Shown piece by piece: positions 10,592-15,005 of a DNA stretch of 39,421 bases. The translations under genes and the position numbers were made by a program. Source of the stretch: a virus. Within the stretch, counting starts at the first letter, position 1. Every line of letters begins with the position of its first letter. Under the pieces are notes generated by a model. That model made no database searches, was not told the origin of the DNA, and saw only the letters and a list, made by a program, of their open reading frames with translations. The stretch is taken from positions 1 through 39,421 of the IMG/VR virus record IMGVR_UViG_3300043398_000186; one strand, 5' to 3'.

Positions 10592-10613
10592 AGGCGGGAT
10601 TTTCGCCCCGCCT
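10592..10613 (-). terminator. Stem-loop terminator or attenuator after the capsid pair
   Basis: The minus strand reads AGGCGGG, an 8-base loop GCGAAAAT, then CCCGCCT, a perfect 7-bp stem, followed by TTAAAATTTT. It lies in the 51-base gap after the 166-residue gene. A partial terminator here would give the capsid gene and its neighbour more transcript than the tail genes downstream. The trailing T run is broken by adenines, so termination is probably incomplete. Confidence 0.6.
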
Positions 10614-12017: not shown

Positions 12018-12215
12018 TTTGTGCCCCCTAAAAAGTGTTTATCTTAAAAACTGTACTCTTATCGAAGGGCTTGTCTGCGAAGCAGGGCCTAACTTCATGC
12101 CGAGGGAAAGCCCCTCGGTCAGGCTACCGACTTTATCCGGCGGTCAAAATCGGCCCACAATAGAATTGCGGGTTATCGACTATATGGCTAAAGCATAACC
12201 TTAGCCACGCAATAG
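12018..12215 (-). ncRNA. Multi-hairpin leader upstream of the capsid gene (candidate structured RNA)
   Basis: This is the longest non-coding gap inside the virion operon and it is densely structured on the minus strand. In transcript order the elements are as follows. A two-tier hairpin has arms at 12212-12217/12178-12183 (GACTAT/ATAGTC) and 12201-12207/12185-12191 (TGGCTAA/TTAGCCA). A hairpin at 12172-12154 pairs CCCGCAAT with ATTGTGGG. A perfect 7-bp stem lies at 12118-12100 (CCGAGGG/CCCTCGG). A short CTG/CAG hairpin lies at 12085-12075. ATTGCG at 12213-12208 can pair instead with CGCAAT at 12170-12165, so two folds compete. No gene was seen within it. It could act as a leader regulator, a processing site or a transcription-control element. 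Structure is seen; function is inferred. Confidence 0.6.
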
Positions 12216-13115
12216 TCAATCGGAAGCTGCGGCCATTTCATGTAGTCTAGACATTTCGGAACGCGCTTTAACGTCGCCTTTTATGTATCTGCTTGTAAAT
12301 TCTGGATCAGACTTTAGTGCCTGAATTCTGGATTTAGCTTGCGAAGGCGTTAGTATAACCCCGTCCCCGAAACCTTGCCCGCTTTGACCGCTAACAAAAC
12401 CATGCTCGCCTATACGCGAACCGATATTGTGCATGAACTTCATTACCCCATCGAAACCCATAGCGCCTTCTAATGCTTTGAGCGCGCTATCTGGTAATCC
12501 GAAAGACCTGTACGCGGCTTGCGCTCTTGCAATGTTTTGCTGATACGCGGCGCCCCATTCTTTTTGCAAAGCCTTGGTTTGCTCTTGTACTTCTATCGCG
12601 TATTTTTCTTGCTCATGGACCGTCTGTACTGAATCAAATTCTTTTAGCTGTTCTATTAAACTCTGCGCTTGAGTTGTCGAAAGATTAAGTTGATGAAATG
12701 TATTTTTCGCCCAGTCCGCAAAAGTTTTGTCCGCGCCTTCATTTACAATAAATCCATATCCTTCCGGCGTAGGCGGTTTTCCTAACTTAGAATAAACGTC
12801 ATTCCACTCCGGCGCATCCGCACTATCCGGCAATTTTAAAAGTCTTTCCTGCGGAACCCCTCTTAATTTTTCTAAATTAACGTAACTCTCTAAAAGCATT
12901 TTAGGATCTTGAAAGCCTTTGTTAGTTACGTAGTCTTTAAGCCCCGGATCAAAGCTATCTGTCCAGTGCGCCGCCACTGGTTTACTCTCTTGCGCGCCTT
13001 TAACCCCGGCGCCGGAAGCTCCCTCTACTACGGCACCCGCCGCGCCCGCTTGCCCTGATACTTCGGCATTTCCTCCGCTAGCGCCCGCTGATACCGCCCC
13101 CGCTGCTTCACTCAT
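12216..13115 (-). CDS. Capsid scaffolding / assembly protein
   Basis: This 299-residue protein starts at an ATG (13115) with AAAGGAC upstream and overlaps the end of the Bbp19-like gene by 8 bases. It opens with an alanine/glycine/valine-rich disordered stretch (residues 1-45), followed by a conserved core with DSFDPGLKDYVTNKGFQDP and KLGKPPTPEGYGF, which are recurrent in podophage scaffolds. The middle is helical (about residues 140-200) and the C-terminus is charged. It should template procapsid assembly and leave the head during maturation. It lies directly before the capsid gene, as expected. Confidence 0.85.
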   Translation of the reverse strand: MSEAAGAVSAGASGGNAEVSGQAGAAGAVVEGASGAGVKGAQESKPVAAHWTDSFDPGLKDYVTNKGFQDPKMLLESYVNLEKLRGVPQERLLKLPDSADAPEWNDVYSKLGKPPTPEGYGFIVNEGADKTFADWAKNTFHQLNLSTTQAQSLIEQLKEFDSVQTVHEQEKYAIEVQEQTKALQKEWGAAYQQNIARAQAAYRSFGLPDSALKALEGAMGFDGVMKFMHNIGSRIGEHGFVSGQSGQGFGDGVILTPSQAKSRIQALKSDPEFTSRYIKGDVKARSEMSRLHEMAAASD

Positions 13116-13377
13116 AAGTGTCCTTTCTGCTTAACTCCCATAACTCGTCTGGAGTTAAATTTAAATGTTTTTGTATACGTAGCCAAACTTCTCTGCGCCC
13201 TTCAAGCACTGCATGTAATCTTGCATCTTGCTTAAAAGTAGTTTCATTCGCCCTGCAAAATTTAGCTAAATCTTTAAGTACAATCTGTGTGTCCGCGTCT
13301 ATGCCCCCGAATAAAGTGGCGTAAGCTTTTTTCCTAGAAAATAAAATGTTTTTTGCTTTTGCTAAAATATCGTCCAT
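13108..13377 (-). CDS. Bbp19-like small phage protein
   Basis: This 89-residue protein starts at an ATG (13377). No convincing ribosome site is visible, so translation may follow from the portal gene 14 bases upstream. The pattern FGGIDADTQIVLKDLAKFC, followed by TTF, then EGRREVWLRIQKHLNL, matches the Bbp19 family first seen in Bordetella phage BPP-1. The family lies between portal and scaffold genes in many short-tailed phages. Its role is unknown. Identification is by sequence pattern and synteny. Confidence 0.8.
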   Translation of the reverse strand: MDDILAKAKNILFSRKKAYATLFGGIDADTQIVLKDLAKFCRANETTFKQDARLHAVLEGRREVWLRIQKHLNLTPDELWELSRKDTYE

Positions 13378-13391
13378 TTATAAAAGGAAGC

Positions 13392-15005
13392 TTATTTCTT
13401 TTGCGCCTTTTGTAAAGCTGCAACGCTAGGCGCAGCTTGAATCAGTTGTTGCTCTTGCGCCTGCTCTTCTCTGCCCTGCCGTATTGCTTGTATTTGTTCT
13501 AAACTATTTCGCCAACGGACAGGCACCGCATTAATATCAGATATGTCCGGAATTATAGTGTCCCAATTAAAATGATCTAATGGCGCCATATTTCCCGTAA
13601 CATTAACTACATTAAGCGCAGTCTCTACCGTTCGCATCAATCCGGAAGCTTCTTCCGCTCTTTGCGCTCTAGATAACGGTGAGTCATATTCTACTTTAAA
13701 TTGCGCGCCAGCTTCTTTTAATATTTCTGGCATCGGCGGCAAAAGACCTTGCTGAGATAAAACATCTATCTCCCGCTCAATTTGAGGGCCTAGTCTTTCC
13801 GATTGCTGCCTGCCAAAAGTAGGCGCCAACAATATTCCCTTTTCCCGTGTCCGCTCCATTACTTCAGTCGCCGTCATTTGCGGAGTTTCAAGTAATATCT
13901 GAAATAGTGTGACTAAGAAATTATCCTTAATGACATTTCTTTCTTCGTCCATCATATCTTTGCCCGCAGCTATGTTGCCCACAGGTAACGCGTGCACTAA
14001 AGGACGCCCGTCTTTACTCACCCCGCCCGCATTAGCCGCTCCCGGTTTTAAAGAAAAAGTATCCAATATGCCGTCATCATGAACCAAAAGAACTGGATCT
14101 ACGGCCCTATGCCCTTGCTTTAAATAAGTTTTCTTTTGTTCGTTTAAAGTCTTAATCGCAGGCAAAACATCCATTGCCGGACTTCGCCCGTAAACTTCGT
14201 TAGGACTCTGCTCATACCTTGACGGCGTGTAAGGAAAAGTGTTGTACCCACCTTCTTCGATGTGCATTTTCCCTTGAAGCGAAATGTAATGCGACTCATA
14301 TGCCATGCCTTTAAAATCTGCTCTGCTCGGGTCTATATCTAATCGAGGCCCCACGTAATGAATAAACTTGTATTCGCGCCCCGGAAAAGTCGCCGCCGCT
14401 TCTCTTATCATCACGGGACATTTTTCTTTAAATTTTTGAGTAGCTTGCTTCGCAGTTAAAGTAAAACACCTTAAAACTTCGTCAATTATCCCTTGATGAT
14501 TTTCTATAAAAAACATCTCGCCTAAATGACAAGTCTTGTATCTAAGCCCGGGCTCAGACCCCGCCGCATCTACGTACATAGCTGCCGATCCAAACGCCCC
14601 TAATGATTTATTAAACATCATGTTTTGCGAAGCGAAATTTGCGATAGTTGAATATCTATATTTAAACAAAAGCCGCGTTACGTCTTCATAATAAACTCTG
14701 ACCGCGCGGTCTCTATTTAACTCATCTACGCTTGACATAACTCGGTGCCATGTCTGATTTCTTGGCGTTAAATACGAATCTAAAATAGCTGCAAATCGAT
14801 TTAGCGCCGTAGCCGCCGTAGAATCAAAAACTTCCTGATTTCTCTTAGACCCCGGAGTCGTTTCCCTATTTGTGAAATCAGCCGTGGCCGGATAAATTCT
14901 GTCCTTAATTTCCTGCCAATGCGACTCCCAAGTTCCGCGCATACCGGACTCTTGCTCGTAAAGCCTGCAAATTTCAAAAGCTTTTTCTTCTAAAGGACTA
15001 TTCAT
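13392..15005 (-). CDS. Portal protein (head-to-tail connector)
   Basis: This 537-residue protein starts at an ATG (15005), six bases after the preceding stop. The N-terminus (ESHWQEIKDRIYPATADFT, then EVFDSTAATALNRFAAILDS) is diagnostic of the podophage head-tail connecting protein family (Head-tail_con). Length is normal for the family. The C-terminus is glutamine/glutamate-rich and probably forms the helical barrel. It should form the dodecameric ring through which DNA is packaged by TerL and to which the gp11-like adaptor binds. Confidence 0.92.
   Translation of the reverse strand: MNSPLEEKAFEICRLYEQESGMRGTWESHWQEIKDRIYPATADFTNRETTPGSKRNQEVFDSTAATALNRFAAILDSYLTPRNQTWHRVMSSVDELNRDRAVRVYYEDVTRLLFKYRYSTIANFASQNMMFNKSLGAFGSAAMYVDAAGSEPGLRYKTCHLGEMFFIENHQGIIDEVLRCFTLTAKQATQKFKEKCPVMIREAAATFPGREYKFIHYVGPRLDIDPSRADFKGMAYESHYISLQGKMHIEEGGYNTFPYTPSRYEQSPNEVYGRSPAMDVLPAIKTLNEQKKTYLKQGHRAVDPVLLVHDDGILDTFSLKPGAANAGGVSKDGRPLVHALPVGNIAAGKDMMDEERNVIKDNFLVTLFQILLETPQMTATEVMERTREKGILLAPTFGRQQSERLGPQIEREIDVLSQQGLLPPMPEILKEAGAQFKVEYDSPLSRAQRAEEASGLMRTVETALNVVNVTGNMAPLDHFNWDTIIPDISDINAVPVRWRNSLEQIQAIRQGREEQAQEQQLIQAAPSVAALQKAQKK

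Follow-up and report, generated by a model that had tools for sequence, protein, structure and literature searches.

We show, by comparison of related loci, that the capsid leader of podophages with a PF19821 major capsid protein encodes a conserved RNA of predicted structure, and that the same short motif recurs in many of these phages in the first codons of the scaffold-like gene. The reading to which we incline, at slightly better than even chances, is that the motif is a translational operator common to the scaffold and capsid genes and is probably bound by a phage capsid-assembly protein.

Genomic context of the capsid leader

The window analysed here is the whole 39,421-nt stretch of viral record IMGVR_UViG_3300043398_000186, a 39-kb phage contig. 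The capsid operon lies on the minus strand, with the scaffold-like gene directly before the coat gene on the same strand and a gap of 198 nt between them; the gene order is the same in the relatives (Table 1). In cultured relatives the scaffold-like gene is annotated as a capsid assembly protein or a putative protease. None of the neighbouring genes was recognised as encoding a protein with an RNA-binding domain. The small ORF between the portal and scaffold genes, with the motif YAYRxxF...VLxDLAKFCRAxxTTFHPDxRxHAxxEGRREVWLRI, is kept in nearly all relatives, whether or not they have the RNA motif, and it was rejected as a candidate regulator since it also occurs in phages lacking the motif.

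Past the gene downstream of the capsid gene there is a GC-rich stem-loop (10592–10613) with a strong T run on the plus strand. It had been proposed to frame a capsid expression unit together with the leader; it is terminator-like on the opposite strand only, and we see no clear framing.

Table 1. Features of the capsid region of the window. In the RNA motifs, internal-loop bases are in square brackets and terminal loops in lower case.
Feature	Position	Strand	Description
Portal gene	13392–15005	minus	first of the listed operon genes
Small ORF phrog_4437	13108–13377	minus	between portal and scaffold genes
Scaffold-like / capsid-assembly gene, 299 aa	12216–13115	minus	phrog_3742; weaker match to phrog_458 'protease'
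Sigma70-like promoter	12192–12219	minus	TTGACT-16-TATGCT; -35 box overlaps scaffold stop codon
Two-tier hairpin	12178–12217	minus	GACTAT 12217–12212 with ATAGTC 12183–12178; inner TGGCTAAG/CTTTAGCCA
Copy B	12150–12179	minus	UCG-[AUAA]-CCCGCAAU ucu AUUGUGGG-[C]-CGA; from sequence and descriptor
Hairpin C	12126–12141	minus	GCCG gauaaagu CGGU; AAAG-containing loop
Hairpin D	12100–12118	minus	CCGAGGG gcuuu CCCUCGG (arms 12118–12112 and 12106–12100); directly 5' of copy A
Copy A	12064–12096	minus	outer GAAG/CUUC, then GGC-[C]-CUGC uuc GCAG-[ACAA]-GCC; core 12068–12089
Shine-Dalgarno-like site	12024–12029	minus	AGGGGG, from sequence; 6 nt before capsid ATG
Major capsid protein gene, 294 aa	11133–12017	minus	Pfam PF19821, E 1.5e-79; PHROG 3437 major head protein

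Structure of the leader in the window

The coding (minus) strand of 12018–12215 folds at -71 kcal/mol (z -3.58), and none of 200 shuffled sequences was as stable; on the plus strand the fold is ordinary, with z only -1.15. When the leader was compared with 199 adjacent 198-nt windows on the same strand, the sole more extreme one overlapped the leader itself, and no other non-overlapping stretch in the genome is as structured as this region on its minus strand (z -3.6 to -4.2). The hairpins from which the original prediction had concluded that there is a dense multi-hairpin leader are thus real, among them a perfect 7-bp stem (hairpin D), but the prediction had missed the conserved part, copies A and B. 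No intrinsic terminator was called on the coding strand of the leader, and a coding explanation was rejected, as there is no conserved ORF in it.

In the single-sequence fold of the window, a different pairing is preferred, which occupies the GGC arm of copy A and also the outer one of copy B (pair probabilities of about 0 for the corresponding helices), and the support for these two predicted arms comes from comparison with the relatives. The pairing GCCUGA/UUAGGC, an alternative in the minimum-free-energy fold of the window, is not seen in the relatives and was rejected. The place of hairpin D is taken in the relatives, by inspection, by a hairpin of different bases.

The two-tier hairpin is also present and, as had been described, begins in the scaffold stop codon (TGA, 12218–12216); it lies outside the widespread element. 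It forms an inverted repeat around the -10 box of the sigma70-like site, inverted repeats are found at the same place in the relatives L003 and L006, and it is possibly a DNA-level inverted repeat. As the hairpin overlaps the sigma70-like site, a transcript starting there would be without the 5' arm of the hairpin, and the role assigned to it earlier is unsupported. Similarly, the alternative pairing of 12208–12213 with 12165–12170 (ATTGCG/CGCAAT), proposed as incompatible with the first two hairpins, exists in the window, but the next relatives L003, L005 and L006 do not have it. These three near relatives have TTGACA at the promoter-like position, and sigma70-like sites were observed in the 5' part of 14 of 103 leaders, compared to 3.6 expected.

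A conserved internal loop in capsid leaders

In the motif, a fixed asymmetric internal loop separates two helices, H1 and H2, whose sequences vary. In the first loop class a single C lies opposite A[C/U]A[A/C]; in the second class U lies opposite G-N-A-N (GCAA, GAAG, GUAG, GACA). C-A and U-G wobble pairs are isosteric in RNA, and the change from C/A to U/G would presumably keep a wobble-type pair beside a three-base bulge. The helices vary freely (GGC/GCC, GAC/GUC, GGG/CCC, CGG/CCG, ACG/CGU), as do the terminal loops, and the internal loop is the conserved part. It comes in both circular permutations. In the window as in the relatives, copy A is closed at H2; in the relatives it is situated 40–85 nt before the capsid start codon. 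Copy B has the internal loop of copy A in permuted order; in the relatives it closes on the H1 side and usually lies approximately 110–160 nt before the start. Between the two, 53 of 103 leaders have an AAAG-loop hairpin at about -95 to -120, compared to 8.7 expected from shuffles.

The capsid loci were gathered by the capsid protein only, with the addition of named phages, and the RNA was not used in the selection. The leaders are mostly unalignable as sequence, yet the motif is common to them. In 103 non-redundant leaders we observed 89 strict motifs, compared to 10.45 in dinucleotide shuffles, and the number of leaders with at least one motif was 65 (9.85 in shuffles). The density per kb was 2.58 in the capsid leader and 3.69 at the scaffold start, compared to 0.02 in the scaffold body and 0.00–0.07 elsewhere; the opposite strand of the leader and scaffold-start zones had no motif. 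A relaxed search (A-N-A-N with C, G-N-R-N with U) retrieved mostly ACAA, AUAA, ACAC, GAAG and AUAC from the leaders and, from equal stretches of the capsid body, eight mixed loops.

In an alignment of 33 sequences, 10 of 11 pairs were double-changed, with 72 double-changed cells compared to 25.7 in shuffled alignments and 16–31 in slid structures; the compensated pairs include G-U. As these sequences were picked by a pairing descriptor, the percentage of paired positions is biased, while this choice explains neither the variety of pairs nor the fixed loop. The original prediction had named a covariance search in related phages as its check; the compensatory changes were found, and the contrary case, related phages with the same gene order and no such changes in the stems, did not occur.

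The covariance model R1 has a single match in the window, to copy A (12059–12099, 31.7 bits, E 7e-6), and across 94 related loci (563 kb) every match below E 0.04 is in the capsid leader and on the plus strand. In a viral collection, the copy A DNA pattern occurs at 108 places, 74 of them directly before a capsid ORF as identified by BLAST. Chance matching was rejected, since a reversed control pattern occurs at 14 places, none before a capsid ORF. The copy B pattern alone has 60 matches, of which 27 are approximately 100 nt before a capsid ORF.

Cultured carriers include HTVC010P, HTVC203P, Skadi, YeP5, Vibrio 1.182.O and ZP6, and the carriers as a whole come from phages or MAGs of Alpha-, Beta- and Gammaproteobacteria, Planctomycetota and Chloroflexi. 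The motif was absent from some phages with the same capsid protein, namely rumen alphaproteobacterial elements, Piluca and TPWB-05. Variants also occur: L201 and L217 have three tandem copies in the A orientation, at about -50 to -160 from the capsid start, and the leaders of Alteromonas phage ZP6 (L242) and L010 have the divergent GUAG/U loop class with inner helices of just 2 bp. In ZP6 the leader has two GUAG/U copies; in L010 the GUAG type is found at the scaffold start too.

Some of these observations bear on the level at which the element acts. A DNA-level element (an operator, packaging or recombination site) with merely RNA-like symmetry would fit the window's first hairpin, whose inverted repeat encloses a -10 box. 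It is a most improbable explanation, given the fixed orientation of the motif to the genes and its absence from the other strand; the G-U pairs among the compensated ones and the C/A to U/G change likewise point to RNA.

A second site at the scaffold start

Weak covariance-model matches cluster approximately 1,050 nt upstream of the capsid start, which corresponds to the first codons of the scaffold-like gene. With the strict descriptor, the motif was found within the first 15 or so codons in 27 of 69 relatives, cultured SAR11 phages among them. If the synonymous codons are redrawn from each gene's own usage, 1.03 of 69 genes are expected to have it, compared to 24 observed, some of which are close relatives. 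A coding explanation of the scaffold copies was rejected, as they vanish upon this redraw. The peptides encoded at the hairpin are unrelated between groups (GSAPAGNP, NAPxxGGQG, AAALLGDNGG) and the loop falls in different reading phases; thus, it is the RNA and not the protein that is conserved at the scaffold start. Covariation within one subgroup of scaffold hairpins is weak (one pair, four cells), hence the case for this site relies on the codon control and on the unrelated subgroups. The SAR11 phages HTVC010P and HTVC203P differ at the scaffold start by a compensated pair, CACAG/CUGUG vs. CGCAG/CUGCG.

The window carries the leader RNA on the coding strand before the capsid gene, with the internal loop of the family (C/AYA[A,C] or U/GNAN) between two covarying helices; the second site, in the first scaffold codons of 24–27 of the 69 relatives, is absent from the window's own scaffold start. 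Thus, the window has only the capsid-leader half of the system. The role in setting the capsid-to-scaffold ratio, as originally proposed, becomes more plausible with the motif at the scaffold starts of relatives, but the window's own start does not contribute to it. The same motif at both genes suggests that one factor could set the amounts of the shell and scaffold proteins.

Whole-genome scans of ten relatives (two of them in part) and the window did not reveal a third recurrent site, and the remaining matches are on both strands and mostly inside ORFs. In L029, a copy-A-like match at about 9057 on the reverse strand lies before an ORF of 723 aa without similarity to the capsid protein. This ORF looks tail-fibre-like, and the match may be due to chance or represent a third kind of target.

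Co-evolution of loop types

In 30 of the 38 non-redundant leaders with two copies, both have the same loop type, compared to 16.0 in shuffled data, the observed figure being inflated by kinship. On the labelled capsid tree, which is a quick one (FastTree only, labels by inspection, unclear leaders such as L190, L191 and L197 excluded), the loop type has changed at least 22 times. In the close relatives L008 (ACAA twice) and L009 (ACAC twice), both copies have switched together. Joint switching suggests a common binding partner or copying between sites, and concordant loop types despite many switches would be expected if the loops follow a common partner.

The loop and its second location are informative about several alternatives. 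The hairpins could act without any regulator, as a constitutive translation enhancer or mRNA stabiliser that protects the capsid mRNA or presents the ribosome site. No product is more abundant than the capsid protein, in some phages a promoter-like site precedes the leader, and the Shine-Dalgarno-like site adjoins the structured part. Still, a stabiliser needs neither a fixed unpaired loop, nor loop concordance between copies, nor a copy inside the scaffold coding start, and we consider this variant unlikely.

It is rather unlikely, too, that both genes exploit the site of a conserved host factor, such as a ribosomal protein, an RNase or an RNA chaperone. The carriers span many bacterial groups, hence the partner should be either common to many hosts or phage-borne; the switching of the loop type between close relatives, in both copies together, is easier to explain with a phage-encoded one. 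As for particular host factors, a CsrA/RsmA site was rejected, as the GGA at the core of such sites, which normally lies in a hairpin loop, is absent from many copies, both of class 2 (GGGCAACCC) and of the B type (UCGAUAACCC), and an RNase III site was rejected because helices of approximately 7–8 bp are too short.

Conserved unpaired bases and two similar domains, with no known protein partner, might also indicate a small-molecule riboswitch or a tandem aptamer before the capsid gene. On the other hand, in the scaffold coding sequence the same loop is carried by just one short hairpin, some five fixed bases are few for an aptamer, and no metabolic ligand readily suggests itself for capsid synthesis, all of which makes a riboswitch very improbable.

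Proposed function

In the operator model, both sites would be bound by a single RNA-binding factor, most likely a capsid-assembly protein of the phage, such as scaffold or coat protein not yet assembled. At the scaffold start, the bound hairpin, 10–45 nt past the start codon, would be near the initiating ribosome and would repress or hinder initiation, while the two copies in the capsid leader would serve as nucleation points for binding and adjust the translation of the capsid gene. As a result, scaffold and coat synthesis would follow assembly. An argument against an operator is that the capsid-leader copies, 40–160 nt upstream of the start, are too far away for a direct block of the ribosome; this distance would favour nucleation or remodelling over a direct block, as in the T4 gene 32 leader (PMC3014915).

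A broader possibility, to which we assign somewhat less than an even chance, is a phage-wide post-transcriptional regulon of virion assembly, in which a phage protein reads the loop, set in several normal and permuted copies at the scaffold start and in the capsid leader, and balances translation of the two proteins against assembly. If so, it would concern a large group of podophages, the abundant SAR11 phages included. The balance of scaffold and coat in tailed phages has been an open question since the P22 work, and a defined, short and mutable RNA signal is now available at both genes. As the carriers HTVC010P, Skadi, YeP5 and Vibrio 1.182.O are cultured, the question can be addressed by reporter fusions and binding assays. 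If the partner is found, the loop could become a new orthogonal RNA–protein tag.

The original prediction is thus partly supported. It was right about a structured leader coupled to scaffold supply and probably regulatory, and wrong about the pieces that matter.

Comparison with known systems

At the gathering threshold, Rfam 15 had no matches in the window or in 12 related loci; at E up to 10, a plant-virus pseudoknot was the sole match, at 11.3 bits (E 2.7) and on the other strand. No description of the motif was found in the open-access literature searched, a 2017 list of 224 candidate RNAs being outside the searched text; most such lists are in Rfam. The claim of a new cis-acting capsid-leader RNA, made in the original prediction, is strongly supported because of the conserved position, covariation, strand specificity and lack of an Rfam match. 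Such an RNA family would be widespread and without an entry in Rfam, and its internal loop recurs in both circular permutations.

The nearest biological precedent is phage P22, with the same order of the portal, scaffold and coat genes. According to King, Casjens and Wyckoff, the unassembled P22 scaffold gp8 reportedly lowers its own synthesis post-transcriptionally, coupling it to assembly. We know of no defined RNA operator for gp8, whereas here an operator-like motif is defined, at both the scaffold and coat genes, and in podophages other than P22.

The coat protein operator of the ssRNA phages MS2 and R17 is a hairpin with a bulged A and an ANYA tetraloop around the replicase start, bound by the capsid protein. 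Like this operator, the motif is a short hairpin at a translation start, in which unpaired bases are fixed and the helices free. However, the combination of a bulged A, an ANYA tetraloop and the start codon was not found in the leader motif, which has a 1x4 internal loop, a free terminal loop, several copies, a dsDNA phage as its carrier and a putative partner.

Leaders of the S15 type are also short RNA structures through which one protein controls translation of its own operon (PMC5100602), but they belong to host ribosomal protein genes, mimic rRNA, and none was matched in our Rfam search. The manA and wcaG RNAs of cyanophages are, like this motif, conserved structures carried by phages and found by comparative genomics (PMC2864571); they differ in being located by metabolic genes, in their structures and in their presence in Rfam, where they were unmatched here. 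Finally, the autogenous leader of gene 32, in T4 and its relatives, contains a pseudoknot operator bound by the ssDNA-binding protein (PMC3014915). Although it has no sequence or fold in common with the motif and concerns one gene, it likewise provides a structured upstream nucleation site, away from the Shine-Dalgarno sequence, in the leader of a highly expressed phage gene (PMC3014915).
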